Positions 30,057-53,012 of a stretch of DNA of 64,000 nt are shown piece after piece. This DNA comes from Halopiger aswanensis. Lineage in GTDB: Archaea; Halobacteriota; Halobacteria; Halobacteriales; Natrialbaceae. The notes under the pieces are model-generated. The model was not told the origin of the DNA. It was given only the letters and a program-made list of their open reading frames with translations, and did no database searches. The translations under genes and the position numbers were made by a program. Position 1 is the stretch's first letter. Each line of letters opens with the position of its first letter. The stretch is taken from NCBI RefSeq assembly GCF_003610195.1, contig NZ_RAPO01000001.1, positions 62,001 through 126,000 on the forward strand, read 5' to 3'.

Positions 30057-30784
30057 TCGTCCCCGCCCTCCGTTCCCCCAGAGACTGCCGTCGAATTCGA
30101 TTCGCCGGCCGTCGCGTTCGACTCGGTCGACTCGTTCCCCTCGCCTGCCGACTCACCACCGTAGCGAGCTGCCCGCTCTGAATCCCGACACCTGTGGCTC
30201 TCGGAACTCGAGAAACTCGAGGGCGCCTCGTCGTAAGGCCGCTGCACGCGGATAACGATCGCTTCGACGAGTTCTTTGTCGGCCTCGCAGGGCGTCGTGG
30301 CGTCTTTTAGCGTCTGGCAGTACTCCGTTCGAAACTCGTCGTCGCCGGCCCGAACCGCGACGAGGCGCCGCCGGTAGCAGTCCTCGATCGACCGCTGTTC
30401 GACGACGACCGATTCGTTCTCGAAGTCGGTCGCCTCGACGAACTCGCGGATTCGGCTCGCGTCGGGCTCGCTCGTCTCGATTCGCAGGGCCGTCGCAGCC
30501 TCGTCGTCGACGACGAATACTCGCTCCCGTCTGCTCCTGTAGCCGTCGCGGTCGGCGGCCGCCTCGGCCGCTTCCTCGTCCTGATGGACGAAAATCTCGT
30601 TTTCGGCCGACCGGACCGCGATCGATTCGTACTCGTGGCTCGACTCGAGCGTCGTCCCTTCGCTCGCGCTGTGTTCGACGGTGGTACCGCTGCCGTCGCT
30701 GCCGGCACACCCTGCGACGGCGAGTGCAAGCGTACTGCCCGCAGTAGCGAGTAGTCGTCTGCGAGAAACCGTTGTGGAGGGCAT
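30053..30784 (-). CDS. Tat-exported lipoprotein, first of a coupled pair
   Basis: This 243-residue protein begins MPSTTVSRRRLLATAGS and has a lipobox VAGC at about residue 25. A mixed alpha/beta domain follows, with FVEATDFENESVVVEQRSIEDCYRRRLVAVRA in pieces and paired Cys residues (EDCYRR, EYCQTL, TPCEAD, HRCRDS) that could form disulfides outside the cell. The C-terminus is a Ser/Asn/Glu-rich tail. The ATG at 30784 is chosen because the Tat motif then lies at the N-terminus; an upstream extension is not signal-like. Function unknown. Confidence 0.75.
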   Translation of the reverse strand: MPSTTVSRRRLLATAGSTLALAVAGCAGSDGSGTTVEHSASEGTTLESSHEYESIAVRSAENEIFVHQDEEAAEAAADRDGYRSRRERVFVVDDEAATALRIETSEPDASRIREFVEATDFENESVVVEQRSIEDCYRRRLVAVRAGDDEFRTEYCQTLKDATTPCEADKELVEAIVIRVQRPYDEAPSSFSSSESHRCRDSERAARYGGESAGEGNESTESNATAGESNSTAVSGGTEGGDE

Positions 30785-32734: not shown

Positions 32735-34198
32735 ATGGACCGGACGTCGGGCGAGCGGGAGGTCGAAGGCCGGCTGGTAGGCGACGCTGCCACCCGGAGT
32801 GTGGCGGCCGACGGCGAGTTGGTGAGCCGCAGCCGTGAACTCGAGGACGTCTCATTCGGCGCAATTGCGGCCGCCGACGTCGACGAGCTCGATGCTGACA
32901 CCGCCACAGCGGCCGACCGAACCGACCGCGCACGCATCCAGTGGGCGGCACCCGACGGCCTCGAGCTCGTCGGTCGCGGCGTAGCCGCGCGATTCGTCGC
33001 AACCGGGCCCGAGCGGTTCGCCGAGGTCCGACGACAGGCGAGCCGCGCGTTCGACGGCCTCGAGCACGACGGCCCGGACGTCGCTCGCCCGCGGGCCGTC
33101 GGCGGCTTCGCATTCCACGATTATCACGCCGCCGACCGCACGGATTCCGATGCTACTGCGGGTTCGACGCCGAACCCGCATCCGAACTGGGACGAGTTCG
33201 ACGCCGCTTCCTTCGTGATCCCCCGCGTGTTCGTCGTCCGAAGCGCCGACGGCGAGGACGAGGGCACGTGGCTCACGGCCGTCGGCGCCGACGCTGACGA
33301 GGCGACGACACGACTCGAGCGCTGGCACGATCACGTTGCGGAGCTCCCGGCGATGCAGCCAAGCGGCGCGGGTCCCGGCGTCGCCGCGACCCACCGAACC
33401 ACCGCACCCGACGAGTGGCGAGCCGGGATCGAAACCGCCCTCGAGCGAATCGCCGACGGCCGCCTCACGAAGGTCGTTCTCGCGCAGGCGCTGTCGGTCG
33501 ACCTCGAGGGCCCGATCGACGTCGGCGCGACGCTCGAACGGCTCCGCCGGGAGTATCCGAACTGCTACCGGTTCCGGATCGGTCGCGAGGGCGGGGTCAC
33601 CTTCTTCGGCGCGCCGCCCGAGCGGCTGGTCGCGAAACGCGGCCCTCGAGTGGCGACCGAGGCGCTCGCGGGCTCCGCGCCACGGGGTGAGACCCCCGAG
33701 GAGGACGATGGACACGCCGATCGGCTGCTCGAGAGCGACAAACTCCGACGCGAGCACGAACTGGTCGTCGACGCGATCCGCGACCAGCTCGCGCCGCTCG
33801 CGCGGGATCTCGAGATCGACGAGCGGACGATCCGAAAGCTGGCGACGATCCAGCACCTCCGGACGCCGATCGAGGCGACGCTGAACGGTGATCGCCACGT
33901 CCTCGAGATCGTCGAAGCGCTGCACCCGACGCCCGCCGTCGGCGGGATGCCGCCCGACGCGGCCTGGGAAACGATCCGCGAGACGGAACCGTTCGATCGC
34001 GGCTGGTACGCCGCGCCGGTCGGCTGGTTCGACGCCGACGGGGACGGCGAGTTTGCGGTCGGCCTCCGTTCCGGAATCGCGACCGACGAGGCGGTCACGC
34101 TGTTCGCGGGCAGCGGCATCGTCGCCGACAGCGACCCCGACGAGGAGTGGGAGGAAGTGCAGTTGAAGTTCCGGCCGATTCTCGACGAGTTACGATAA
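32735..34198 (+). CDS. menF: Isochorismate synthase
   Basis: This 487-residue enzyme turns chorismate into isochorismate, the entry to menaquinone synthesis. The C-terminal chorismate-binding domain shows LAGSAPRGETPEED, LHPTPAVGGMPPDAA and AAPVGWFDADGDGEFAVGLRSG. The N-terminal half is variable and acidic, as usual. It is 34 bp before menD, which uses its product. Menaquinone is the main respiratory quinone of haloarchaea. Salicylate or anthranilate synthases share the fold, but the neighbours settle the call. Confidence 0.94.
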   Translation: MDRTSGEREVEGRLVGDAATRSVAADGELVSRSRELEDVSFGAIAAADVDELDADTATAADRTDRARIQWAAPDGLELVGRGVAARFVATGPERFAEVRRQASRAFDGLEHDGPDVARPRAVGGFAFHDYHAADRTDSDATAGSTPNPHPNWDEFDAASFVIPRVFVVRSADGEDEGTWLTAVGADADEATTRLERWHDHVAELPAMQPSGAGPGVAATHRTTAPDEWRAGIETALERIADGRLTKVVLAQALSVDLEGPIDVGATLERLRREYPNCYRFRIGREGGVTFFGAPPERLVAKRGPRVATEALAGSAPRGETPEEDDGHADRLLESDKLRREHELVVDAIRDQLAPLARDLEIDERTIRKLATIQHLRTPIEATLNGDRHVLEIVEALHPTPAVGGMPPDAAWETIRETEPFDRGWYAAPVGWFDADGDGEFAVGLRSGIATDEAVTLFAGSGIVADSDPDEEWEEVQLKFRPILDELR

Positions 34199-34232
34199 CG
34201 ATTCCATTGCCGTTTGCAACTCCACAACACGC

Positions 34233-36047
34233 ATGAGCGCACCGAACCGCGCGACCCTCTGGGGTCGCGTCCTCGCCGACGAACTCGCCGCCGGCGGCCT
34301 CGAGGCCGCCTGTATCGCCCCGGGGAGCCGCTCGACGCCGCTGACGGTTGCCTTCGCCGAACACCCAGAGATCGACGTCTACTCGCACTTAGACGAGCGC
34401 TCGGCGGCCTACTTCGCGCTCGGCCGGGCGCGTCGCACCGGCGAGCCGACGGCCCTGATCTGCACGTCGGGCACTGCGGCGGCGAACTTCCACCCCGCCG
34501 TCATCGAGGCGAGCCAGGCCCGCGTGCCGCTGCTCGTACTCACCGCCGATCGGCCGCCCGAACTCCGCGATAGCGGCGCGAACCAGACGATCGACCAGGT
34601 CAAGCTCTACGGCGACGCCGTCCGGTGGTACGCCGAGCTTCCCGAACCCGAGGCCGACGAGCGGAAGGTCCGCAGCCTCCGAACGACCGCCGCGCGGGCG
34701 CTCTCGGAGACCGTCGGCGTCGAACCCGGCCCCGTCCACCTCAACTGCCCGTTCAAGAAACCCCTCGAGCCGCTCGAGGTTCCCGACGCCGTCCCCGAGT
34801 CCTTCGGTGAGACGCTCGCCGGACGCGGGCGGGACGGTCCGTTCGTCGAAACGGATCGCGGGCGGCGGACGCTCGAGGCGGACGCCGACGGATTGCGGTC
34901 GCTTACCGAGGCGCTTCAGACCGCCGAGCGGCCGCTGATCGTCGCCGGGCCCGCGGATCCGCGGGACCTGCAGGAACTCGAGCCCGACGCGGTCGTCGAC
35001 CTCGCCGAACGCGTCGGCGCGCCGATCCTCGCCGATCCCCTGTCGGGGCTGCGGTTCGGTTCGCACGTTCGTGCGCGCGAGGATCCTCTGATCTACGGCG
35101 GCTACGACACCTACGTCGACGCGCTCGAGGATCCGGACGTCGTCCTCCGGTTCGGCGCGTCGCCGACGTCGAAACCGCTGCGCCACGCGCTGCGCGACGC
35201 CGACGCCCGCCAGTTCGTGGTCGACCCCGCGGGGGCGTGGCGCGAGGCGACCTTTACCGCGACCGATCTGCTCGCGGCGACGTCCGCGTCGGTCGTGGAG
35301 GGTCTACTCGAGGTGCTCGACTCTGGATCTACTGCCGAGACGGACACGGACGACGCATGGCTCGAGCAGTTCGCCGCCGCCGAGCGGAACCACTGGGCGG
35401 TCCACGACGAGGCGCGAACCGACGACGCGCTCGAGTCCGAGCCGCTCGAGGGCGCCGTCCTCGCGTCGGTCTTCGAAACGGCGCCCGATCCGGCGACGGT
35501 GTTCGTCTCGAACAGCATGCCGATCCGAGATGCGGAACGGTTCGGCCGGCCTCGAGCCGCCGACCTGACGGTCCTCGCGAATCGCGGCGCCAGCGGTATC
35601 GACGGCATCGAGAGCACGGCGCTGGGGGCCGGCAGCGCGACCGACCAGGACGAACCGCTCGTGCTCGTCACCGGCGATCTGGCCTTCTACCACGACGCGA
35701 ACGGGTTGCTCGCCGTCGACCGATGCGACGTCGACGCCACGATCGTCCTGCTGGACAACGACGGCGGCGGCATCTTCCACAAACTCCCCATCGAGGCGTT
35801 CGACCCGCCGTTTACCGACCAGTTCAAGACGCCCCACGGGATCGAGTTCGAATCGCTCGGGGAGGCGTACGGCCTCGAGTTCGAGCGGGTCGAACCCCAC
35901 GAGTTCGACGACGCGTATTGCGAGTCGCTCGAGCGCGAGGGAACGCAGGTGCTGTCCGTCGGGTTCGACGCCGAGCGGAGTCATCGGCGGCGAGAGGAAC
36001 TCGCAGAGCGTGTGGCCGACAGCGTTGACGAGACGCGACGCGACTGA
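34233..36047 (+). CDS. menD: SEPHCHC synthase MenD
   Basis: This 604-residue thiamine-diphosphate enzyme joins isochorismate and 2-oxoglutarate to give 2-succinyl-5-enolpyruvyl-6-hydroxy-3-cyclohexene-1-carboxylate. Family segments are CIAPGSRSTPLTVAF, CTSGTAAANFHPAVIEA, SNSMPIRDAERFG, NRGASGIDG and the cofactor site VTGDLAFYHDANGLLA with LLDNDGGGIFHKLP. Length fits the family. It follows menF closely; a gap with no gene separates it from the converging transporter gene. Confidence 0.96.
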   Translation: MSAPNRATLWGRVLADELAAGGLEAACIAPGSRSTPLTVAFAEHPEIDVYSHLDERSAAYFALGRARRTGEPTALICTSGTAAANFHPAVIEASQARVPLLVLTADRPPELRDSGANQTIDQVKLYGDAVRWYAELPEPEADERKVRSLRTTAARALSETVGVEPGPVHLNCPFKKPLEPLEVPDAVPESFGETLAGRGRDGPFVETDRGRRTLEADADGLRSLTEALQTAERPLIVAGPADPRDLQELEPDAVVDLAERVGAPILADPLSGLRFGSHVRAREDPLIYGGYDTYVDALEDPDVVLRFGASPTSKPLRHALRDADARQFVVDPAGAWREATFTATDLLAATSASVVEGLLEVLDSGSTAETDTDDAWLEQFAAAERNHWAVHDEARTDDALESEPLEGAVLASVFETAPDPATVFVSNSMPIRDAERFGRPRAADLTVLANRGASGIDGIESTALGAGSATDQDEPLVLVTGDLAFYHDANGLLAVDRCDVDATIVLLDNDGGGIFHKLPIEAFDPPFTDQFKTPHGIEFESLGEAYGLEFERVEPHEFDDAYCESLEREGTQVLSVGFDAERSHRRREELAERVADSVDETRRD

Positions 36048-36211
36048 GTGTTGATCCTTCTCCGGCTAGTCTCGAGGAGTTGACCTGCTGATTGCCTGCT
36101 TCAGGCTGCGTCGCGACGGCCACGGTCGCTGACCGATACCGACCGAATAAATCTCATATCGCTATATCAAACAGGGCTTAATTCGGGTCCGCAATCTACT
36201 CCCTGAATTCG

Positions 36212-37084
36212 TCAGACGGCAATCAGCGTCACGCCGATCACCGCGAGCACGGCGGCGGCGAGTCGAAGCCGGAAGTGGCGCTCGCCCAGGAGGACGCCGC
36301 CGAGGACGACCGCGACGATCGCCTGCGTGTTGATGACCGGCGAGGCGATGCTAGCGGGCAGGATCGCGAACGCGAGCGTCGTCAGGTGCTCGCCGAGCGC
36401 GACCATCCCGCCCGCGACGGCGAGCTTCGGCAGGTCGCCGCGGATCGCGGTCGGCGGATTGCGAACCGCGATCGGGAGGAGCACGACCGCGACCCCGAAC
36501 AGCAACAGCGGCACCCAGAGCCGCTCGGGGATCGCCAATTCCTGCAGCGATACGCGCTTGCCGAGGTCGCTGACCGCGTAACACATCGCGCTCAGCAGCG
36601 CGAGCTGGGCGGGCCGCGAGGCCGCGGCCTTCCGGAACGGTTCGAAGAAGCCACCGGGATCGTAGTTGGCGACGTAGACGGCGAGCGTCGCGACGACGAC
36701 GCCGCCGACCTCGAGCGGCGTCAGCACCTGCCCGAGCACCACCACCTCGAGGGGCAACACGAACATCGGGACGAGCTTGTTGATCGGGGTGACGTAGGAG
36801 ACGTCGCCCTCCGCGATGGCCCGCAGAAAGAGCACGAACGCGGCGGCGGTCGCGACGATCGTGAGCGCCGTCACACCGGCTTCCGCGGCGCCGAAGCGTC
36901 CAAGCGCCGCCGCTGACCCGTCGACCTGCGTGACGGCGATCGGCAGGTACCACGCGATTCCGAAGGCGTTGATGAGGACGGTCAACGCCGCCGGCGGATA
37001 CTCGTCGAACGACCGCTTCAGCACGTAGATGTAGACGCCCCAGACGAGGGCGGCGACCAGCGCGACTCCGAGTCCGGCATCCAT
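36212..37084 (-). CDS. EamA/DMT-family transporter
   Basis: This 290-residue protein has ten predicted membrane helices in two repeated halves, as in the drug/metabolite transporter superfamily. The first half starts GLGVALVAALVWGVYIYVLKR, the second near LALLSAMCYAVSDLGKRV. The C-terminus HFRLRLAAAVLAVIGVTLIAV is typical. Substrates in this family range from amino acids to sugars, and none is indicated. It lies antisense within the menaquinone locus and looks functionally separate. Confidence 0.88.
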   Translation of the reverse strand: MDAGLGVALVAALVWGVYIYVLKRSFDEYPPAALTVLINAFGIAWYLPIAVTQVDGSAAALGRFGAAEAGVTALTIVATAAAFVLFLRAIAEGDVSYVTPINKLVPMFVLPLEVVVLGQVLTPLEVGGVVVATLAVYVANYDPGGFFEPFRKAAASRPAQLALLSAMCYAVSDLGKRVSLQELAIPERLWVPLLLFGVAVVLLPIAVRNPPTAIRGDLPKLAVAGGMVALGEHLTTLAFAILPASIASPVINTQAIVAVVLGGVLLGERHFRLRLAAAVLAVIGVTLIAV

Positions 37085-37232
37085 ATCGCGACCCCACGAA
37101 AGTCCGCGCCAAGAACGGTTCGATTGCTCGCTCGCGGCGCGGTTCGTCTCCGTCCCGCGGCTCGGTCCGACGCTCGAGTCACTGCGTCGTCGAGGCCGAA
37201 AATGAGATCGCCAGCCGCTCGAGCCGTTGCGT

Positions 37233-37538
37233 TCAGTCGATCTGGGGCGCCTTTTCGTCCGTACGGCCGGGTAACTCGAGTTCGATCTCGAGTTCCGGCT
37301 CGCCCATGCCGTCGAAGTCGAGCTCGAGTTCGACCGGTTCGCCGAAGGCGAAGGGGAGTTCCCACGCCTCGCCGTCGGTAGTGTCGCTGATCGTCAGCTC
37401 GTCGCCGTCACGAAGCTGCTCGCCCAGCGCGATCAGGAACTCGCCCGCCTCGCTGGCGTCGAGCCGGTACTCCTGTTCGAACTCGCGGCCTGCTCGGATG
37501 ACGGTTCGCTCGTCGCTCGCGGAGTCGTCGTCTGCCAT
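37233..37538 (-). CDS. Amphi-Trp domain protein
   Basis: This 101-residue acidic protein contains one amphi-Trp domain: FEQEYRLDASEAGEFLIALGEQLRDGDELTI (in pieces, residues 19-50) followed by DGEAWELPFAFGEPVELELDF with the defining Trp-containing strand. The domain is widespread in haloarchaea and some bacteria; its role is not established. It follows no operon partner. Confidence 0.82.
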   Translation of the reverse strand: MADDDSASDERTVIRAGREFEQEYRLDASEAGEFLIALGEQLRDGDELTISDTTDGEAWELPFAFGEPVELELDFDGMGEPELEIELELPGRTDEKAPQID

Positions 37539-37762
37539 CGGCGGGGGTACGGAATCGACGACTATGTTTCTCGCGGTTGGTCGCGCTCCGCCTGGGCCTG
37601 ACCAGGCGTTTTGGTCGCGGTGACAAGCGCAGGACTCGAGGGTGAATACGGTGGACAGCGTTGCTCGCCGTGCCCCCTCTCGACGAGCGACGCTGCCCGG
37701 TACGTAGCCGTCGGGCCCGATATATTCTCGACATAATAGTTAAAATTCAACCGTACGACTAT

Positions 37763-37768
37763 TATAAA
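37763..37768 (+). promoter_or_regulatory. TATA box of the beta-helix gene
   Basis: ATTATAAAAC at 37761-37770 is the only AT-rich stretch before the ATG at 37799. The spacing of about 33 bp allows a very short leader and argues against the longer upstream reading frame. Confidence 0.55.
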
Positions 37769-37798
37769 ACGCTATCGGCCGCCCCCGGACAGTCCCGG

Positions 37799-39166
37799 AT
37801 GATGTTCGACGATACCGGTACGACGGGCGGATGGCCTGCTGCAAACGGACAGTCGACGCGCCGATCGTTCCTCGGCGGACTCGGCGCGACCGTCGGACTC
37901 GGCGCGCTGACCGGTTCCGGCCGAGCGCAGCCGACCGGCGCTTCTAGCCCGGACGGAACGGTGTACTACGTCGCCCGAATCGGCGATCTCGAGCTTCCGG
38001 GTCGCAAACGAGGATGGAACAGGAGTGAAAACGGAAATGGAAACCACAACGGCGCGAACAACGGTGAACACGCACGCGGTCGACTCACCGACGCCGAGTA
38101 CCTGGTCCTCGAGGGCCAGACGGGAACGATCGCATTTACGACGGACGGCACCGCCGAGGAGGCGTTCCAGTACGCCTTCGACGAACTCTCTGGGTCCGGC
38201 GGCACCGTCGTCGCGAGCGGCGACACCTTCGAGTTCGGCGGCCCGGCCACGGCCGGCGACGGAACCGCGCTGGTCGGCAGCGGCGGAACCCGGTTCGTCG
38301 TCGCCGGTGCCAGCGGGGAGTCGGGCCACGACCTGCTCCGCGTTCGCGGCGACGGCGCGACGGTGGCCAACGTCGAGTTCGACGCCAACGGCACGCAGAC
38401 CGACAACCACGCGATTCAGGCCGACGACTGCGACGGGCTGGTGATCGCGAACAACCGCACGGTCGACGGCTTCCAGATGGCGATTTCGTTCTCGCGGTGC
38501 CGGAACGTGCGGGTCGTCGGCAACGAGGTCCTCGATCCCAACTGGTACGGCATCACCGCTCGGGCCGCCGACGACGAACGGGACCTGCGCCGCTCCGAGA
38601 ACGTGCTCGTCGCGCAGAACTACGTCGCCGGCGTGACCTACAACAACATCGCGACCTACAACGTCAGCAACTTCGCCGTCTCCGGCAACGTCGTCGAGGA
38701 CGGCGGCCACAGCCTCATCGCGTGCTCGCCCGCCCAGCAGGGCGCCATCGTCGGCAACGTCTGTCGCGACCTCGAGGAGTACGCCCCCGATCCGGGCGGC
38801 GAGGCGGGGATCGAGATCGAGTACAAGGAAACCCACGTCCGCGAAGAGATCGCCGGGACGGACCGCGCTCGGTCCTACGACATCACGATTTCGGGGAATC
38901 AGGTCGACAACTGTCCGGTCGGGATCCTCGCCCGAACCGTCCCCGCGGACCCCGAGGACGAATCCACCCGCGAGACGGAACGTCCCCACAGCTTCACCGT
39001 GACGGGAAACTCGATCAACGGCGCTGGCGCCGCCGGAATCCGCATCCGCTCCGGCGCGGCGGGCGTCGTCGCGACGAACACGGTCCGCGACAGCGCGACG
39101 CCGCTCGAGGTCGACGAGACGTACGCGGTCGATATTCAGGAGGGACTGAACGCCACTCGAGCGTGA
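37799..39166 (+). CDS. Tat-exported right-handed beta-helix protein
   Basis: This 455-residue protein has a twin-arginine signal (QSTRRSFLGGLGATVGLGALTG) without a lipobox Cys, so it is probably secreted. A short Asn/Gly-rich linker precedes a parallel beta-helix domain. Repeated rungs are visible: LVIANNRTVDGF, VRVVGNEVLDPNWYGI, VLVAQNYVAGVTYNNI, FAVSGNVVEDGGHS, ITISGNQVDNCPVGI and FTVTGNSINGAGAAGI. This pattern resembles NosD/pectate-lyase-like proteins, which bind or cleave polysaccharides. No catalytic Asp/Arg set was identified, so the substrate is open. The start is set by the TATA box. Confidence 0.85.
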   Translation: MMFDDTGTTGGWPAANGQSTRRSFLGGLGATVGLGALTGSGRAQPTGASSPDGTVYYVARIGDLELPGRKRGWNRSENGNGNHNGANNGEHARGRLTDAEYLVLEGQTGTIAFTTDGTAEEAFQYAFDELSGSGGTVVASGDTFEFGGPATAGDGTALVGSGGTRFVVAGASGESGHDLLRVRGDGATVANVEFDANGTQTDNHAIQADDCDGLVIANNRTVDGFQMAISFSRCRNVRVVGNEVLDPNWYGITARAADDERDLRRSENVLVAQNYVAGVTYNNIATYNVSNFAVSGNVVEDGGHSLIACSPAQQGAIVGNVCRDLEEYAPDPGGEAGIEIEYKETHVREEIAGTDRARSYDITISGNQVDNCPVGILARTVPADPEDESTRETERPHSFTVTGNSINGAGAAGIRIRSGAAGVVATNTVRDSATPLEVDETYAVDIQEGLNATRA

Positions 39167-39269
39167 GTTGACCCGGTCTCGATTACACGGTTTTGATCGG
39201 CGAACTCGGACCACGTCCCCCTCTCGTTTCGATCCGGTACCCCGGGAAACGGCCGAAACGGGCGGGACT

Positions 39270-39320
39270 GAAAGGGGCTGACCCGGTCGACCGACCGTAT
39301 CGACCGGGTCAGGGGCTTTC
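39270..39320. promoter_or_regulatory. Strong hairpin/dyad just before menB
   Basis: A perfect 12-bp inverted repeat, CTGACCCGGTCG (39278-39289) and CGACCGGGTCAG (39301-39312), encloses an 11-nt loop. Outside it a symmetrical GGG/GGG bulge is closed by GAAAG (39270-39274) and CTTTC (39316-39320). It ends 47 bp before the menB ATG, next to the TATA-like CTATTTC. No T-run follows, so an operator or RNA element is more likely than a terminator. Confidence 0.7.
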
Positions 39321-39367
39321 GGCTGGACGCGAATCTATTTCAGCCGTCGCCGACCAACAACGAGCCG

Positions 39368-40258
39368 ATGGTTTCGGAACTGTTCGACCCCGAGCGCTGG
39401 GAGCCCGTCGGGCTCAACGACGACTTTCGCGATATCACGTATCACCGCGCGGTCGACTCCGGCACGGTCCGGATCGCCTTCGATCGCCCGGAGGTGCGCA
39501 ACGCCTTCCGGCCGGGGACGGTCGACGAACTGTACGACGCCTTAGAGCACGCGAAACGCCAGACCGACGTCGGCTGCGTCCTGCTGACCGGCAACGGGCC
39601 GTCGCCGAAGGACGGCGGCTGGGCGTTCTGTTCCGGCGGGGATCAGACGATCCGCGGCGAGGACGGCTACCAGTACGAAGGAGACGAAGAACGAGCGTCC
39701 GAACAAGGACGCCTCCACATCCTCGAGGTTCAGCGGCTGATCCGCCACATTCCGAAGGTCGTCGTCTGCGTCGTTCCGGGCTGGGCCGTCGGCGGCGGTC
39801 ACTCGCTGCACGTCGTCTGCGACCTCACCCTCGCGAGCGAGGAGCACGCCAAGTTTCTCCAGACCGATCCCGACGTGGCCAGCTACGACGCCGGCTTCGG
39901 CTCCGCGTATCTCGCCAAGCAGATCGGCCAGAAGAAAGCGCGCGAGGTGTTCTTCCTCGGGAAGACCTACGACGCCGAGGAGGCCGCCGAGATGGGCATG
40001 GTCAACGAGGTCGTCCCCCACGAGGACCTCGAGGAGACGGCCCTCGAGTGGGGCGAGCGCATCAACTCGAAGAGCCCGACGGCGATGCGGATGCTCAAGT
40101 ACGGGTTCAACATGACCGACGACGGGATGATCGGCCAGCAGGTGTTCGCCGGCGAGGCGACGCGGCTGGGCTACATGACCGACGAGGCAAAGGAAGGCCG
40201 CGACGCGTTCGTCGAGGGCCGCGAGCCCGATTTCGACGACTTCCCGTGGCACTACTGA
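39368..40258 (+). CDS. menB: 1,4-dihydroxy-2-naphthoyl-CoA synthase
   Basis: This 296-residue crotonase-family enzyme closes the naphthalene ring from o-succinylbenzoyl-CoA. Family marks are FCSGGDQTIRGEDGYQY, GWAVGGGHSLHVVCDLTLAS (an oxyanion-hole Gly pair) and TDPDVASYDAGFGSAYLAKQIG, with the MenB-specific Asp in SYDAGFG. The C-terminal REPDFDDFPWHY is typical. It is separated from menD by about 3.3 kb and has its own promoter region with the hairpin. Confidence 0.96.
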   Translation: MVSELFDPERWEPVGLNDDFRDITYHRAVDSGTVRIAFDRPEVRNAFRPGTVDELYDALEHAKRQTDVGCVLLTGNGPSPKDGGWAFCSGGDQTIRGEDGYQYEGDEERASEQGRLHILEVQRLIRHIPKVVVCVVPGWAVGGGHSLHVVCDLTLASEEHAKFLQTDPDVASYDAGFGSAYLAKQIGQKKAREVFFLGKTYDAEEAAEMGMVNEVVPHEDLEETALEWGERINSKSPTAMRMLKYGFNMTDDGMIGQQVFAGEATRLGYMTDEAKEGRDAFVEGREPDFDDFPWHY

Positions 40259-40392
40259 CGGCCGGGTCGATTTTCGAGGAGCGGACGCTCGACGTAGAGG
40301 CTCCGCGAGAACGGTGGGAAACGTACTCGAGCGGAGACGTACGTAGCCGCTGAGAGAAAGCCATTTGGGCTTCACGGCCGGTTGTTCACGTA

Positions 40393-41742
40393 GTGACGCT
40401 TCCCGATCGGTCCTCGCTGCCCCGCCGGGATTACCTCCGTGCATTAGTCGCCGTCGGCGGGACGACGGCGTTGAGCGCCTGCCTCGAGTTCGCCAGCGAC
40501 GGGGCGGACGGCGACCCGGACGTGCCGACCGGAACGGACGACCCCGAGTCGCTCCCGGACCGCCAACACGCGTGGAACGAGGCATTGGGGACGGACGACG
40601 ACGGCAACGTCCAGCCGCCGGAACACCACGTGTTGGTGGCACTGTCGCTCCGGGACGACGTGCTCGAGGACACCGGCGGCGGTGACGGGAACGGAGACGG
40701 CGACCCCATCGACGCAGACGCTCGAGAGACGACTGAATCCGCACTCCGAACGCTCGAGCGAGCCTACGAGTGGAGTAACGACGGCCTCGTCTTCACGCTC
40801 GGCTACACGCCGGCGTACTTCCACCGGTTCGACGCCTCGCTGTCCGACGCGGTCGACCTGCCGGACCCCGAGGCACTGACCGCACAGGAGGCCCCCGAGT
40901 TCGACGACTTCGACGCCGTCCTCCACCTCGCGAGCGACCGTCCCGAGGTCGTCCTCGAGGCCGAAGAGTGGCTGTTCGGTGAGCGCGACCAGCTCAACGG
41001 GCTCGAGATCGAGACCGACCTCACGGGCGTCTTCGAGCGCCTCGAGGAGCGGCGCCGGACCGGTTTCGTCGGCGCAGGGTTGCCGGCCGAGCACACCGAC
41101 GTCCCGGGCGTCCCGGAGTCGGTACCCGAGGAGGCGCCCTTCTTCATGGGCTTTCGGTCGGGCTTCCGGGCCAGCCAGGCGACCGAAGATCGCGTTACGA
41201 TCGAGTCGGGCCCGTTCGCCGGCGGGACGACCCAGCACGTCGAGTCCCTGGAGATCAACCTCGAGCAGTGGTTCCAGCAGGAGAACCACACCCAGCGCGT
41301 CTCGAAGCTGTTCAGCCGCGAACACGCCGAAGAAGGTCTGACTGGCGACGTCGGGGAAGAGCTGACGACGGCGAACGGGCTGACCACCGAGCGGATCGAC
41401 GCCACCGAGGCCGACGCCCGCGAGCACAACGTCGTCGGCCACGCGCAGAAGGCGGCTCGAGCCCGCGAGGACGGCGAACCGCCGCTCCTGCGCCGGGATT
41501 TCAACACCGTCGACGGCGACCGGCCCGGCGTCCACTTCCTCGCGCTCCAGCGGGGCATCGACGACTTCGTCCGGACGCGCGAGGCGATGACGGGCGCCGA
41601 TTTGGACGTGCCGATGGCGAACAACGGCATTCGCCACTACATCTTCGTCGAGCGGCGGGGCAACTACCTGGTGCCGCCGCGGTCGCTGCGCGCTCTGCCG
41701 CCGGCGACTCCCGAGAGTGAGGCTGACAACGACGCCGACTGA
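40393..41742 (+). CDS. Tat-exported DyP-peroxidase-like protein (DUF7405-like)
   Basis: This 449-residue protein has a Tat signal (LPRRDYLRALVAVGGT) and lipobox-like SACLE, so it is probably a surface lipoprotein. The C-terminal half follows the DyP/EfeB plan: FMGFRSG in place of the usual GFxDG, a GGTTQHVESLEINLEQW strand-helix, a His in EHNVVGHAQKAAR that may be the heme ligand, LLRRDFN, and FLALQRGIDDF. The catalytic Asp of GxxDG appears as Ser, so classic peroxidase activity is doubtful. It starts at GTG 40393. With the next gene, a P19-like protein, it recalls iron-uptake systems. Confidence 0.75.
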   Translation: MTLPDRSSLPRRDYLRALVAVGGTTALSACLEFASDGADGDPDVPTGTDDPESLPDRQHAWNEALGTDDDGNVQPPEHHVLVALSLRDDVLEDTGGGDGNGDGDPIDADARETTESALRTLERAYEWSNDGLVFTLGYTPAYFHRFDASLSDAVDLPDPEALTAQEAPEFDDFDAVLHLASDRPEVVLEAEEWLFGERDQLNGLEIETDLTGVFERLEERRRTGFVGAGLPAEHTDVPGVPESVPEEAPFFMGFRSGFRASQATEDRVTIESGPFAGGTTQHVESLEINLEQWFQQENHTQRVSKLFSREHAEEGLTGDVGEELTTANGLTTERIDATEADAREHNVVGHAQKAARAREDGEPPLLRRDFNTVDGDRPGVHFLALQRGIDDFVRTREAMTGADLDVPMANNGIRHYIFVERRGNYLVPPRSLRALPPATPESEADNDAD

Positions 41743-41808
41743 CTCGAGCCGCGGACGCGGACCGGAATCGAACGAAACCAACGCTCACGAGGACACGACG
41801 CGAGACAC

Positions 41809-43116
41809 ATGCAAAACCGAAAGCACGGGTTCGACGCCATCGACCGACGAACGTTCGTCCGCCGAACGGGAGCGGTCACGGGAACGCTCGCGCTCGCCGG
41901 CTGTACGAGTACTGACGACGAGTCCGACGAGAACGAAAGCGATCGGTCGGGCGGTGACGCCGGAAACGAGAGCGAGAACGAGGCCGGAGCCGGCGACGCG
42001 GCGCTCCCCCGACAGATCACCGTCGAGGACCCACCCGAGGCCGTCTATCTGCCGACCCACCGCGAGTCGATGCGGACCCTCGAGCCAGTCGAAGCCGGCG
42101 ACTACGCGGTCGCGGCGATGCTCTCCTACCCCCACCAGTTCTGGGTGATCGCGGGCGACACCGACGACGCGGTCGAACGGACGACGCCCGAGGAGGCCCG
42201 CGGCGTCCACGTGATGTTCGTCGCCTGGGACGCCGAAACGGGAACCGTCCTCCCGGTCGACGAGGGCGTCCAGATCAGGATTCGACAGGACGGCGAACAG
42301 GTCGGTGCGCCGCGCCAGCCCTGGACCATGCTCTCCCAGGAGATGGGCTTTCACTTCGGCGACAACGTCGGACTCCCCGGCGACGGCACCTACACCGTCG
42401 AGGTCACGCTCCCGCCGATTTCGACCCGGAAAACCGGTGCCCTCGAGGGGCGGTTGGACGAGCGCGCGACGGCGACCTTCGAGTTCGACTACGACGACGA
42501 GTTCCGCGAGTCGGTCGTCAGCGGCGTCGAGTACCTCGACGAGGAGCGGTGGGGCGAGCGCGGTGCCCTCGAGCCCATGGAGATGATGGTGACGGGCGAG
42601 CACGACGAAGAGGATGGGATTCCCTACTCCACGCTACCGCCTGTCGACGCCTATCCCGGGACGCTGCTCCTCGAGTCCGATGCCGACGACGAGAACGCTG
42701 GTTCCGACCGCGAGGCCCTCGAGACGACCGACCTTCCCCGCAGCGGTGACGCGGCGTTTCTCGCGACGCTGCTCGAGTCGGACCACCGGCTCGCTGACGA
42801 CGGACAGTACCTCCTCGTCTCGCCGCGGACGCCGTACAACCGCGCGCCGCTGGCGGATATGTCCCTGCGCGCGACGATCGAACGCGACGGGGCGGAACTC
42901 GGCGGTGCGCCGCTCGAGCAGACCCTCGACGGTGAGTACGGCTTGCACTACGGCCTCTCGCTGCCGGCCGTCGACGGCGTCGAGGGCCTCGAGCCCGGCG
43001 ATTCGGTAACGATCGAGATCGAGTCGCCGCCGCAGGTCGCCCGCCATCAGGGGTACGAGACGGCGTTTCTCGAGATGCCGCCGGTCGAGCTGACGGTGCC
43101 GGAATCGGGAGCGTAG
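41809..43116 (+). CDS. P19/Tp34-like iron-associated lipoprotein (DUF7350-like)
   Basis: This 435-residue protein has a Tat motif (IDRRTFVRRTGAV) and lipobox LAGC, then an acidic linker and a beta-sandwich domain of about 170 residues. Segments SYPHQFWVIAGD, ARGVHVMFVAWDAETG and MGFHFGDNVGLPGDGTYTVEV resemble P19/Tp34 high-affinity iron proteins, with His residues placed as possible metal ligands. A second beta domain follows. It lies 66 bp behind the DyP-like gene, so both are probably made together. Iron binding or delivery is inference; no FTR1 permease is in the window. Confidence 0.75.
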   Translation: MQNRKHGFDAIDRRTFVRRTGAVTGTLALAGCTSTDDESDENESDRSGGDAGNESENEAGAGDAALPRQITVEDPPEAVYLPTHRESMRTLEPVEAGDYAVAAMLSYPHQFWVIAGDTDDAVERTTPEEARGVHVMFVAWDAETGTVLPVDEGVQIRIRQDGEQVGAPRQPWTMLSQEMGFHFGDNVGLPGDGTYTVEVTLPPISTRKTGALEGRLDERATATFEFDYDDEFRESVVSGVEYLDEERWGERGALEPMEMMVTGEHDEEDGIPYSTLPPVDAYPGTLLLESDADDENAGSDREALETTDLPRSGDAAFLATLLESDHRLADDGQYLLVSPRTPYNRAPLADMSLRATIERDGAELGGAPLEQTLDGEYGLHYGLSLPAVDGVEGLEPGDSVTIEIESPPQVARHQGYETAFLEMPPVELTVPESGA

Positions 43117-43202
43117 TCCCGGAACGCGAAAGCGGGATCGGGGCCGCAATCGCTCGACTGCAATGCCAACGTTGACACTCTCTCGAGTGGGACACTCGAG
43201 GT

Positions 43203-44141
43203 ATGACCGAGGTGGAGACGTCACGGACGAAGGCGTGGCTGATGGCGGCGCGCCCGCAGACGTTGCCCGCGGCCGCGGCGCCCGTCATCGTCGGTACCGG
43301 ACTCGCGGTCTCCGAGGGCGTATTCGCCCCGGTGCCCGCGCTACTGGCGTTCGTCGGCGCGGCGCTGATCCAGATCGGCACGAACTTCGCGAACGACTAC
43401 TACGACGCGATCAAGGGCGCGGACACGGAGGACCGCGAGGGGTTCACCCGCGTCACGCAGTCGGGACTGATCCCCGCCGAACAGGTCAAACTCGCGACGA
43501 TCGTCACGTTCGCGCTGGCGATCCTCACCGGCACGTATCTCGTCTACGTCGGCGGCGTGCCGATCCTCGTGATCGGCCTCGTCAGCGTCCTCTGCGGCTG
43601 GGCCTACACCGGCGGTCCCTACCCGCTGGGCTACCACGGCCTCGGCGACCCCTTCGTCTTCGTTTTCTTCGGGATCGTTGCCGTGATGGGGACGTTCTAC
43701 GTGCAGGCGGCCGCTGTGGCCCCCGTCGGGCCGCTGCCGACGGCCGTTCCCGAAGGGACGATCACTCTCGAGGCGTTCGTCGCCAGCCTCCCCATCGGCG
43801 CCATTTCGACCTGTATCATCGTCGTGAACAACATCCGGGACAAGGAGACCGACGCCGAGACCGGCAAGCGAACGCTCGCGGTTCGGCTCGGCTACCGGTG
43901 GAGCCGCGTCGAGTACCTGGCGCTGCTCGCGCTGGCCTACCTGACGCCGTTGTGGTTCTGGCTCGAGGGCTTCGGCCTCGGCGCCCTGCTCCCGCTGATC
44001 TCGCTGCCCTACGCCGCGTCGGTGGCGCGGACGGTCCTGACCCGAACTGACGGGGAGGCGCTCAACCCGGCCCTCGAGGGGACCGGGAAGCTGCTCGCCC
44101 TCTACGCGGTACTGTTCGCCGCCGGGCTGGTGGTGCTATGA
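43203..44141 (+). CDS. menA: 1,4-dihydroxy-2-naphthoate polyprenyltransferase
   Basis: This 312-residue UbiA-family membrane enzyme attaches the isoprenoid tail to dihydroxynaphthoate. Both Mg-pyrophosphate motifs are present: NFANDYYDAIKGADTEDR and NNIRDKETDAETGKRTLAVRLG. Eight to nine membrane helices are visible between and around them. Its stop overlaps the menC start (ATGA), so menA-menC-menE form a coupled operon. Confidence 0.95.
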   Translation: MTEVETSRTKAWLMAARPQTLPAAAAPVIVGTGLAVSEGVFAPVPALLAFVGAALIQIGTNFANDYYDAIKGADTEDREGFTRVTQSGLIPAEQVKLATIVTFALAILTGTYLVYVGGVPILVIGLVSVLCGWAYTGGPYPLGYHGLGDPFVFVFFGIVAVMGTFYVQAAAVAPVGPLPTAVPEGTITLEAFVASLPIGAISTCIIVVNNIRDKETDAETGKRTLAVRLGYRWSRVEYLALLALAYLTPLWFWLEGFGLGALLPLISLPYAASVARTVLTRTDGEALNPALEGTGKLLALYAVLFAAGLVVL

Positions 44142-45250
44142 GCGATTCCGATCCGGGTTCGGGTCGCGACCCCGACGACCCTGACGCCGACCCCAACGCC
44201 ACTCTCGAGTTCGAGTTCCGGCCGTTCTCGCTCGACCTCGCCAGCCCGCTCGAGACGTCAAACGAGACGATCGAGACCCGCGAGGGATTCCTCGTCCGAC
44301 TGGCCGACGAAAACGGCGCAGTCGGCTACGGCGAGGCGACCCCGTTGCCGGGCTGGACCGAATCCCGGGACGACTGTCGAGCGGCCCTCGAGCGCGCGCA
44401 GGACGCCTTCAGTACCGGCGGTCCGAACGAGGCGCTCGAGGCGGTCGACCGGCAGGTTGCGGCCCGCCACGCGGTCTCGCTTGCGCTCGCGGACCTGCAG
44501 TCCTCCCGGCACGCGACGCCGCTGTACCGCTACCTCGGCAACGGACCGATGGTGGGACGCGTCCCGGTAAACGCGACCATCGGCGACGGCTCGCCCGCGG
44601 AGACCCGCACGGCGGCGCGCGAAGCGAGCGAGCGGGGCTACGCCTGCTGCAAACTCAAGGTCGGTCTGCGTAGCGTCGAGGCAGACATCGAACGCGTCCG
44701 GGAAGCCCGCGACGCGGTCGGCGACGAGGTCGAACTCCGCGCGGACGCGAACGAAGCCTGGACCTACGAGGAAGCCGAGTCGGCCCTCGAGGCCTTCGCC
44801 GACCTCGGCGTCTCGCTGGTCGAACAGCCGCTTCCCGCGGGCGCACTCGAGGGCCACGCCGACCTCCGCGCCGCGAGCAACGGCGTCGACATCGCGCTCG
44901 ACGAGGGGCTGCTCGAACACGGCGTGGACGCGATCTGCGAGGCCGAGGCTGCCGACGCCGTCGTGCTGAAGCCGATGGCGCTGGGCGGGGTCGACGTCGC
45001 CCGCCGGGTCGCGGCGTGGGTGATGGAGGTCGACATCACGCCGATCGTCACGACGACCATCGACGGCGTCGTCGCCCGAACCGGCGCGGTCCACCTCGCG
45101 GCCGCGATCCCCGACGTGCCGGCCTGCGGGCTCGCCACCGCCGAACTGCTCGCCGAGGATCTCGGCCGCGATCCGGTCCTGCTCGAGAAGGGAGCGGCCG
45201 TCGTGCCGCAGGCGAAGGGTCTGGGCGTCGAGGGGGTGTGGGAGGAGTGA
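44138..45250 (+). CDS. menC: o-Succinylbenzoate synthase
   Basis: This 370-residue enolase-superfamily enzyme dehydrates SHCHC to o-succinylbenzoate. Catalytic elements are KLKVG (general acid/base Lys), metal ligands in RADANEAW, LVEQPL and ALDEGL, and the second Lys in VLKPMALGG. An acidic N-terminal stretch of about 25 residues precedes the capping domain. Dipeptide epimerases share the fold, but the setting between menA and menE decides. It overlaps menE by 4 bp. Confidence 0.94.
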   Translation: MSDSDPGSGRDPDDPDADPNATLEFEFRPFSLDLASPLETSNETIETREGFLVRLADENGAVGYGEATPLPGWTESRDDCRAALERAQDAFSTGGPNEALEAVDRQVAARHAVSLALADLQSSRHATPLYRYLGNGPMVGRVPVNATIGDGSPAETRTAAREASERGYACCKLKVGLRSVEADIERVREARDAVGDEVELRADANEAWTYEEAESALEAFADLGVSLVEQPLPAGALEGHADLRAASNGVDIALDEGLLEHGVDAICEAEAADAVVLKPMALGGVDVARRVAAWVMEVDITPIVTTTIDGVVARTGAVHLAAAIPDVPACGLATAELLAEDLGRDPVLLEKGAAVVPQAKGLGVEGVWEE

Positions 45251-46839
45251 CGGGGCCGGCAGGGGCGACTGAGTGGCCCACCCGCGACCTCCTCGCGCAC
45301 AGAGCGGCGACGACGCCTGAACGGACGGCACTGATCGACGCCGACGCGGACGAGGGCGACGCAGGTGCGACGTGGACCTACGCCGAATTCGACCGCCGCG
45401 TCGACCGAACCGCGGCGGCGCTCGAGGCCGCGGACGTCGCAGAGGACCGGCTCGGCGTTCTCGTGGGTACGCGACCAGCCTTCGGAACCGTCTTCTTCGC
45501 CGCGATGCGGCTCGGACTGACGGTCGTCCCGCTGAACGTCCGCGAGACGACCGCCGAACTCGCATCGAAGGTCGACCGCACGGAACTCGAGGCGATCGTC
45601 TGTGAGCGCGAGACCGAGACGACGGCGCTCGATATTGCGGGTACGACCGACGGGCGTCGGCTGCCGGTACTCTCCGTGGACGACCCTGCCGCCGAACCGG
45701 AGACCGACGCCGACGTCCGGTTCCTCGAGACGACCGCGGACGGCGATTCGAGTTCGCCGTCGGTCGATCCCGTCCCGCTCGAGCGCGACCACACGCAACT
45801 CCTGATGTTTACCTCGGGCACGTCGGGCCAGCCGAAGATCGTTCGGTTGACCGTCGGCAATCTGGTCGCCAGCGCGACCGCCTCGGCGTTCCGGCTGGGC
45901 GTCGACCGCGACGACCGCTGGCTCTGCTGTCTCCCGATGTACCATATGGGCGGGCTCGCGCCGGTCGTCCGGTCGACGCTGTACGGCACGACCGCCGTGA
46001 TCCAGCGCGAATTCGACGCTCGAGAGACAGCACGCGTGATGGACGAGTACGACGTGACCGGCGTCTCGATCGTGCCCACGATGTGCAAGCGGCTGCTCGA
46101 CGCGGATTGGGAGCCGCCCGAATCGCTCCGGTTCGTCCTGCTGGGCGGCGCACCCGCCTCGAGCGAGCTGCTCGAGCGCTGTCTCGAAGCGGACGTGCCG
46201 GTCCACCCGACCTACGGGATGACCGAGACGGCCTCGCAGGTCGCGACCGCGACGCCGGCCGCCGTTCGCGAGCACGAAGGGACGGTCGGCCAGCCGCTCG
46301 TGAACACTGATGTCGCGATCGTCGACGAGGACGGCGATCCCGTTCCGGCCGGCGAACCGGGAGAACTCGTCGTCTCAGGGCCAACTGTGACCCCGGGCTA
46401 TCTCGACGCCGATCGAACCGACGAGGCGTTCGGCGACCGCGGACTCCACACCGGCGACGTCGGCTACCGGGACGACGACGGCCGACTCTGGATCCTCAAC
46501 CGGCGCAGCGACCGCATCGTTACCGGCGGGGAGAACGTCGATCCGGGAGAAGTTGTCGCGGCGCTGCGCGAGTACCCCGCCGTCGAAGACGCCGCCGTCG
46601 TCGGCCTCGAGGATCCCGAGTGGAGCGAGCGCGTCGCGGCGCTCGTCGTACCGGCTGCGGAGACCGAACCCGATGTCGATACGCTGCTCGCACACTGCGA
46701 CGCACACCTCGCGGGATTCAAGAAACCGAAAACGGTCGGCTTCGCGGACTCGCTGCCACGTACCGCATCGGGGACCGTCGACCGCGAGGCTACTCGTAAA
46801 CGGCTGCTCGAGGGCGGGATCGACGTCACTGAGCGGTGA
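45247..46839 (+). CDS. menE: o-Succinylbenzoate-CoA ligase
   Basis: This 530-residue AMP-forming ligase activates o-succinylbenzoate with CoA. Adenylation motifs are MFTSGTSGQPKIVRLT, YGMTETASQ, GDVGYRDDDGRLWILNRRSDRIVTGGENV (in pieces) and the C-terminal Lys region LPRTASGTVDREATRK. The start is taken as GTG 45247, in a GTGA overlap with menC and behind GGGAGGAG. Longer frames upstream run inside menC. Other acyl-CoA ligases look alike, so the operon is the main reason for the specific call. Confidence 0.93.
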   Translation: MTGPAGATEWPTRDLLAHRAATTPERTALIDADADEGDAGATWTYAEFDRRVDRTAAALEAADVAEDRLGVLVGTRPAFGTVFFAAMRLGLTVVPLNVRETTAELASKVDRTELEAIVCERETETTALDIAGTTDGRRLPVLSVDDPAAEPETDADVRFLETTADGDSSSPSVDPVPLERDHTQLLMFTSGTSGQPKIVRLTVGNLVASATASAFRLGVDRDDRWLCCLPMYHMGGLAPVVRSTLYGTTAVIQREFDARETARVMDEYDVTGVSIVPTMCKRLLDADWEPPESLRFVLLGGAPASSELLERCLEADVPVHPTYGMTETASQVATATPAAVREHEGTVGQPLVNTDVAIVDEDGDPVPAGEPGELVVSGPTVTPGYLDADRTDEAFGDRGLHTGDVGYRDDDGRLWILNRRSDRIVTGGENVDPGEVVAALREYPAVEDAAVVGLEDPEWSERVAALVVPAAETEPDVDTLLAHCDAHLAGFKKPKTVGFADSLPRTASGTVDREATRKRLLEGGIDVTER

Positions 46840-51905: not shown

Positions 51906-53012
51906 TCACTGTTCCCGTTCACCGGGGGTCTCGTCGTAGATCTCGGGGTTCTCTTCGCCCTCGACGTCGATGACGGCCATCGCGCCGCGGCGACCGGCGC
52001 GGGTCAGCGCGTGGTCGACGATCTTGACCGGGCCGGGGACCGGGAACTCCATCTCGCCGACGGTGGTGGTCCCGGGCGCGACCGGCGCCGTCTCGATGTT
52101 TCGGTCGGGCTCGCTCAGCAGGTCGCCGTCCCGGTAGTAGTTTCGCCAGACGTTGCCGATCGGGTGTAGGGCGCTGGTGAAGTTCGGGCCGCCGTTGGCG
52201 AAGTACACCCGTGCGGTCTCGCCGGTTTCGGCTTCCATCGGCCCGACTCCGTCCTCCGTGAGGCCGTAGGCCTGGCCGTTGAAGACGACGTAGGTCGGGT
52301 CTTCCGTCTTCATGCCCTCGAAGTCGAAGGCGTGGTGGCCCTGCTCGCCGACCTCGCCGTCGGTGTAGATCTCGTGCTGGCCGAGGTAGAACTCCCGGTC
52401 CACCTCGGGGAGTCCCTCCTCGGGCTCGACGAGGATCGTCCCGAACATGCCGGCGCTGATGTGCTGGTCCAGGTTCGGGACCGCACAGTGGTAGATGAAC
52501 GCGCCGGCGTACTCGGCGGTGAAGCTGATCGTCGCCGCGTTCTCGCCGGGGGCGACGGTCGTCGCTTCGGCCCCGCCACCGGGCCCGTAGACCGCGTGGA
52601 AGTCCATGTTGTGGGCCTCGAGGTTCATGTCCTCGGGCACCTCGACGGTGAGGTTCACCCGGTCGCCCTTGCGGACGCGGATCATCGGTCCGGGGACCTG
52701 CCCCTCGAAGGTCATGTAGTCGAACGTGACGCCGGGTTCGATTTCGGCCGTCACGCGCTCCGTGCGGACCGTGATGTCGTGTTCGCGGGGTTCCGTCCAG
52801 TCGACGGGAGCCGGGATGTCGGTCGGATCGCGGGCGATCCGGTCGACGTCGGCAGCCTTCGCCGCCGGCAGTCCCTCGTCGACCGCCGCGGGTTCGGTCG
52901 TCGTGCTGTTCCCCGACACGTCGTCGTTGCTGAGGCAACCGGCGATTGCGACGACGCCTGTTGCCCCGAGCGCCTGCATGAACTGCCGTCGGTTGGCTGC
53001 GGTTGTGGTCAT
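51906..53012 (-). CDS. nirK: Copper-containing nitrite reductase
   Basis: This 368-residue enzyme reduces nitrite to nitric oxide in denitrification. Two cupredoxin domains carry the copper ligands: His134, Asp137 and His139 in AHNMDFHA; Cys176, His184 and Met189 in YHCAVPNLDQHISAGM with His175; and His283 (ALHPIG) and His334 (IVDHALTR) from the second domain. The N-terminus has a Tat motif (NRRQFMQALG) and lipobox IAGC at Cys26, so it faces outward. The start at 53012 follows GGAGAAGG. The palindrome at 53090 lies 77 bp upstream. Azurin-like donors and NO reductase are not in the window. Confidence 0.95.
   Translation of the reverse strand: MTTTAANRRQFMQALGATGVVAIAGCLSNDDVSGNSTTTEPAAVDEGLPAAKAADVDRIARDPTDIPAPVDWTEPREHDITVRTERVTAEIEPGVTFDYMTFEGQVPGPMIRVRKGDRVNLTVEVPEDMNLEAHNMDFHAVYGPGGGAEATTVAPGENAATISFTAEYAGAFIYHCAVPNLDQHISAGMFGTILVEPEEGLPEVDREFYLGQHEIYTDGEVGEQGHHAFDFEGMKTEDPTYVVFNGQAYGLTEDGVGPMEAETGETARVYFANGGPNFTSALHPIGNVWRNYYRDGDLLSEPDRNIETAPVAPGTTTVGEMEFPVPGPVKIVDHALTRAGRRGAMAVIDVEGEENPEIYDETPGEREQ

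Follow-up and report, generated by a model that had tools for sequence, protein, structure and literature searches.

Two adjacent genes of the haloarchaeon Halopiger aswanensis, belonging to the Pfam families DUF7405 and DUF7350, are tentatively read here as encoding a surface metal-redox pair that is more copper-like than iron-like, a reading to which we give a probability of about 0.4. From their pairing and proximity, a joint function of the two is very likely. Both genes lie in the 64,000-nucleotide stretch of DNA analysed here (the window), and an initial annotation made from its letters had already set the outer ends of the two reading frames correctly (40393-43116):

40393..41742, + strand: DUF7405 gene; GTG start, 449 aa; Tat lipoprotein with a predicted DyP/EfeB-like fold.
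40423..40482, + strand: DUF7405 protein, from the twin-arginine (residues 11-12) to lipobox Cys30; lipobox LSAC.
41809..43116, + strand: DUF7350 gene; ATG start, 435 aa; Tat lipoprotein of two apparently P19-like halves.

The genes are on the same strand, 66 bases apart. Both products are Tat lipoproteins, as the initial annotation had it: the lipobox Cys30 of the DUF7405 protein is kept in 65 of 65 sequences and Arg11/Arg12 in at least 90% (alignment A3), and the DUF7350 protein has an RR at residues 13-14 and a lipobox LAGC with Cys32. In Pfam, the first matches DUF7405 (PF24152, E 1.5e-149) and, barely above the cut-off, Dyp_perox_C (E 5e-4); the second matches DUF7350 (PF24041, E 1.9e-49) and, again barely above the cut-off, Iron_transport/P19 (E 2.4e-4), which some of its relatives match more strongly (6.7e-10 at L069:8539-9606). 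Since Pfam already covers both as two families without assigned function or partner, the pair is no discovery of genes. The literature searched, from which subscription journals are mostly missing, contained neither the term DUF7405, nor biochemistry on either family, nor, for haloarchaea combined with DyP, P19 and iron, anything on the DUF7405-DUF7350 pair. Three results are absent from the same literature: the residue pattern and the P19 duplication, both new here, and the finding that FTR1 is mutually exclusive with them in the phylum.

The DyP-like fold suspected in the first protein is found in its predicted model. (AlphaFold inputs were the window protein aligned with proteins of named haloarchaeal loci.) This model (mean pLDDT 86.6; input alignment of 65 sequences) matches DyPs over residues 42-441 (Foldseek, 6.4e-15); its best VIA match is Sphingomonas EfeB 6jbn (Z 26.3, rmsd 3.8, 322 residues), and all 50 VIA matches listed are DyPs or DyP-like (Z 24.6 to 26.3). 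By sequence, the family profile reaches deferrochelatases only at E 0.011, and hhalign of A3 against a single EfeB gives E 0.0076 but a probability of 5% (1.8% against YfeX). The mapping of motifs rests on the fold and on an agreeing joint MAFFT alignment, which places the active site as follows:

41149..41163, + strand: GFRSG (residues 253-257), where DyPs have GxxDG; Ser256 corresponds to EfeB Asp235.
41440..41442, + strand: His350, at EfeB His329 (DyP proximal haem ligand); invariant, 65/65 and 40/40.
41491..41496, + strand: Arg367-Arg368, at EfeB Arg347-Arg348 (DyP distal Arg); invariant, 65/65 and 40/40.

The proximal His and distal Arg of a DyP are present, and the distal Asp, as the initial annotation saw, is gone: residue 256 is Ser in 61, Asn in 3 and Ala in 1 of the 65 sequences in A3, and Ser in 32, Ala in 7 and Asn in 1 of the 40 in A1, with no Asp in either set (the window protein is included in both). 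His381 is also invariant (A3, 65; A1, 40). The DUF7405 protein is read here as a probable haem protein that has the DyP fold but lacks the distal Asp.

Does the missing Asp mean that peroxidase action is missing as well? The initial annotation had considered this possible. The distal Asp is important for Compound I formation in DyPs, yet Klebsiella pneumoniae DyP D143A still forms Compound I, which is moreover reduced faster (PMC6153280, in the portion available). In a few known DyPs the Asp is replaced by Glu and activity is lower, according to the accessible part of PMC7611857. Loss of the Asp alone does not imply loss of peroxidase action, because neither the distal Arg nor the proximal His varies and D143A still forms Compound I.

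The second protein is P19-like, as the initial annotation proposed, but in the predicted model (mean pLDDT 85.4; input alignment of 56 sequences) the P19 immunoglobulin-like fold is found for the N half only. The model matches FetP, FtrA, HftA, Tp34 and P19 over residues 86-235, and its N half aligns with FetP 3nrq over 133 residues (VIA, Z 12.2, rmsd 2.6). At the level of sequence, a profile of the whole DUF7350 family finds FtrA 8vv5 at E 2.8e-6 (HMMER). The relevant parts are:

42034..42522, + strand: P19-like half at the N terminus (residues 76-238), with His134, Met136, Met174, Met179 and His182.
42214..42216, + strand: Met136, in the place of P19/FtrA Glu44; Met in 56/56.
42343..42345, + strand: Met179, in the place of P19/FtrA Asp92; Met in 56/56.
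42730..43104, + strand: C-terminal half, residues 308-432, the DUF7350 domain; HYG (His380) and RHxxxE (Arg412-His413-Glu417).

Compared by profile, the two halves match each other (hhalign P 3.4e-9, probability 96%). The best of 60 column shuffles gave P 1e-3 and reversed columns 0.005; a cohesin profile gave 0.12 against the N half and 0.005 against the C half, and a DyP profile 0.46 and 0.27. Judged from these profiles, the DUF7350 protein arose by internal duplication of a P19 unit. The C half alone found no P19 structure in the PDB by sequence, and the structural match list of the model is occupied by the N half, so that the C half was hardly probed there. With no P19 match of its own, the C half is called P19-like from its similarity to the N half and from two FtrA-like motifs, HYG and RHxxxE.

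The residues of the metal sites differ in part from those of P19, and the swaps point to copper. In the HMMER alignment, His134, Met136, Met174, Met179 and His182, all invariant (56/56), fall at FtrA positions 42, 44, 88, 92 and 95 (counted by hand from the alignment). Three of these, His134, Met174 and His182, are equivalent to what we take to be the P19 copper-site ligands, His42, Met88 and His95, and the copper positions are thus kept. A fourth copper-site His is presumably supplied in P19 by the partner subunit; this His, in RHxxxE of FtrA, is not in the N half of the DUF7350 protein, and RHxxxE is found in its C half, with His413 in 56/56. The acidic patch, on the other hand, is gone. In Campylobacter jejuni P19 the patch that binds Mn as an iron analogue consists of Glu3, Glu44, Asp46 and Asp92, about 7 Å from the copper site (PMC9174327, as far as the available text goes). 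Three of these four acids, Glu44, Asp46 and Asp92, were mapped and are lost in DUF7350, the position of Asp46 being Thr in 32, Ser in 14, Val in 6 and Ala in 4 of the 56 sequences and the other two being Met. The initial annotation's suggestion of iron binding by this protein is weakened by these changes and by the kept copper positions.

EfeB works with EfeU and EfeO, and P19 with FetM or FtrC; the initial annotation had merged these separate bacterial systems into one with a single FTR1 permease. EfeUOB, FetMP and FtrABCD all depend on such a permease, and none is available to the pair. That no permease lies nearby had been noticed from the window; FTR1 is also absent from the whole H. aswanensis genome and from all 122 high-quality genomes of its order, and the sole trace among 146 order genomes is a fragment that scores below the threshold, from a genome that is incomplete. 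Iron uptake via a hidden local FTR1 was rejected on these grounds. Across 246 genomes of the phylum, FTR1 (PF03239) occurs in 30, all outside the order, and DUF7405 in 35, all within it. The pair itself is widespread: DUF7405 is found in 126 and DUF7350 in 120 of the 146 order genomes, 120 having both, six DUF7405 only, none DUF7350 only and 20 neither (hypergeometric 1e-19, a value that ignores kinship). Since the genomes without both span several families, the two genes tend towards joint loss.

Like EfeB, an A-type DyP, the DUF7405 protein has the DyP fold, is exported by Tat and keeps both the proximal His and the distal Arg; it differs in that the distal Asp is always replaced, that it is a lipoprotein and that no EfeU (FTR1) exists in the order. 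The DUF7350 protein shares with P19, FetP and FtrA the fold of its N half and the copper-site positions, and differs in having two halves in one chain, Met for Glu44 and Asp92, a lipid anchor and no FTR1-type permease. With the permease missing and key residues changed, the pair probably has a different job, in copper or metal redox.

What surrounds the pair elsewhere? Gene neighbourhoods were compared at 81 loci, the window plus the best 80 of 286 relatives; the set was ranked by similarity to the window and leans to Natrialbaceae. (The gene caller placed no DUF7405 in five of the named loci; a profile search found it in 81/81.) Sequence extends 5 kb on both sides in 69 loci, and DUF7350 lies within 5 kb of DUF7405 in 54 of these, downstream and co-directional in 52. 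The alignments hold 65 of 74 candidate rows in A3, 56 of 63 in A4, 23 of 27 in A5 and 28 of 56 in each of A6 and A7, the rows omitted being near duplicates or every second row. Beyond the pair, neighbourhoods are mostly unconserved, and no membrane transporter is common to most loci. DsbD_2-type membrane proteins occur in five loci (three checked), and an HVO_0163-type regulator in 23 of the 121 loci of two sets (one checked).

A third gene, for a membrane-anchored protein with a cohesin domain, accompanies the pair in 25 of the 69 loci and often overlaps DUF7350 by 4 bases. It is missing from the window:

43117..43202, + strand: gap before menA, where relatives have the cohesin-domain third gene.

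Relatives of this protein are encoded elsewhere in the H. aswanensis genome (L227 10545-13715, contig C6), where by eye the gene adjoins one for a 5'-nucleotidase-like exported protein, a kind of gene also seen upstream of DUF7405 in L139, L142 and L174. The cohesin-domain protein was rejected as a required third part and is considered optional, in view of its 25 of 69 loci and its location elsewhere in this genome. Menaquinone genes (isochorismate synthase, menD, menB, menA and menC-/menE-like) surround the pair at 32735-46839, and a position between menB and menA is frequent in Natrialbaceae (gene names checked for the window). As menA is found in only 26 of 120 loci, the men cluster was rejected as a clue to function and treated as a lineage-specific location.

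Several other genes were observed in passing. Some 9 kb further downstream, the window encodes a copper-containing nitrite reductase (51906-53012; TIGR02376, E 9.3e-110), and two adjacent genes for lipoprotein-like proteins of 466 and 243 aa (28656-30784) have no Pfam match at E 0.01. A second DUF7405 gene of the same genome (L062 8042-11343) has no DUF7350 beside it and adjoins a gene for a 643-aa lipoprotein-like protein without a Pfam match, a neighbour also found in L153 and L162. In L128, L130, L131, L132, L137 and L163, the gene after DUF7350 encodes a lipoprotein-like protein of about 180 aa that is rich in His (the two tested have no Pfam match), and in some of these loci the two genes share 4 bases.

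Two lines of evidence diverge: copper is suggested by the residue swaps and some gene islands, iron by the history of the families, the ferritin neighbours and a repressor. The islands at L069 (457-9609), L100 and L068 hold DUF7405 and one or two DUF7350 genes with varying sets of companions, among them an iron-dependent repressor (FeoA domain), a multicopper oxidase, a ZIP-like protein, a halocyanin, a regulator and a large membrane protein. Three islands have a gene that reads by eye like a Cu-ATPase, and two also have multicopper oxidase and halocyanin genes. A ferritin-like gene lies near DUF7405 in seven loci of Natrinema-like genomes (two confirmed by Pfam). In a census of proteins encoded within 3.5 kb (150, thinned from 504), Ferritin appears 3 times. 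The 25 families listed, with counts down to 1, for a control of distant genes do not include it (107 used of 150 thinned from 240; most of the 43 omitted lay close to the end of a locus or were truncated there), a difference that is suggestive only. The mere presence of Ferritin is uninformative, because it is found in 138 of the 146 order genomes. The lean to copper is taken because the swaps occur in every sequence seen, whereas the iron neighbours are local.

In the copper-like reading, Tat export and the lipid anchors would keep both proteins on the outside of the membrane, and therefore no cognate FTR1 permease would be needed. One chain of the fused DUF7350 duplication may replace the bacterial P19 homodimer, the N half keeping the His/Met/His of the copper site and the C half presumably the fourth His, and the site would bind one soft metal ion, of which Cu(I) is the likeliest. 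The DUF7405 protein may contact its partner and exchange electrons with the metal held there, either by peroxide oxidation or as an electron relay. The fuller proposal is less probable: that haloarchaea turned two folds of bacterial-type iron uptake into a copper-redox module that needs no permease, with an asymmetric P19 pseudo-dimer made by fused gene duplication, whose iron site has given way to one Cu(I) site rich in Met and His, and with an Asp-less DyP acting as metal redox partner rather than general peroxidase. Counting against copper are the ferritin-like neighbours, the iron-dependent repressor, the ability of an Asp-less DyP to remain a peroxidase, the failure of the C half to find a P19 structure by sequence and the mostly unconserved neighbourhoods.

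The main rival is that the pair delivers iron to another importer, redox-cycling surface iron for FecCD-type siderophore ABC systems or a ZIP-like permease. This is a somewhat unlikely reading, though P19 and EfeB relatives do work in iron uptake (PMC9174327 and PMC10783030, in the parts available), and the genome encodes three strong FecCD permeases and no FeoB. The ferritin-like neighbours agree with it, as does the setting of the L069 pair beside the repressor, multicopper oxidase, halocyanin and ZIP-like membrane protein. Against this, the P19 iron-patch acids are gone, the pair has no import gene as a conserved neighbour, and the ZIP match is below the cut-off, in a protein of two related islands only. 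Nor does the available portion of a study of iron starvation in Haloferax volcanii, a species that carries both families, tie anything to the pair; the genes it names are RND and Fhu genes (PMC11349517). A further rival, in which the DUF7405 protein accepts haem at the surface or resembles a deferrochelatase and its P19-like partner takes the released iron, is improbable. It would suit the DyP fold with its invariant proximal His and distal Arg, and EfeB has been proposed to extract iron from haem (PMC9174327, same portion); the conserved neighbours include no gene for haem uptake, the iron acids of P19 are missing from the partner, and deferrochelatase activity of the B-type DyP YfeX is described as disproven in the part of PMC7611857 available. 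Ordinary extracellular peroxide defence, with electrons from the partner, is quite improbable, since despite the kept His and Arg and the behaviour of D143A the Asp is absent in every member seen, which is odd for a peroxidase under selection, and there is no stress-gene neighbourhood.

For the preferred copper-like pair, the nearest working model, by analogy, is the Streptomyces sco-ecuC-SLI_4212-dtpA operon. It too encodes a Tat-exported DyP with extracytoplasmic metal-binding lipoproteins, and its authors hypothesise that DtpA oxidises chaperone-bound copper; its partners are Sco and ECuC, not P19, and unlike the haloarchaeal pair it has a putative copper transporter (PMC4736821, as far as the text was available).

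Whichever metal is handled, two domains of unassigned function that occur in more than 80% of the sampled genomes of the order each gain a fold and a partner, and with them a testable active-site hypothesis, in an order from which FTR1-type systems are absent and in a phylum where other families have them. If the copper reading is true, the P19 fold has changed its metal through swaps of carboxylate for thioether, and DUF7405 would be a second case, after DtpA, of a DyP in copper handling. If iron is true, the pair would be a case of P19 and DyP function without FTR1.
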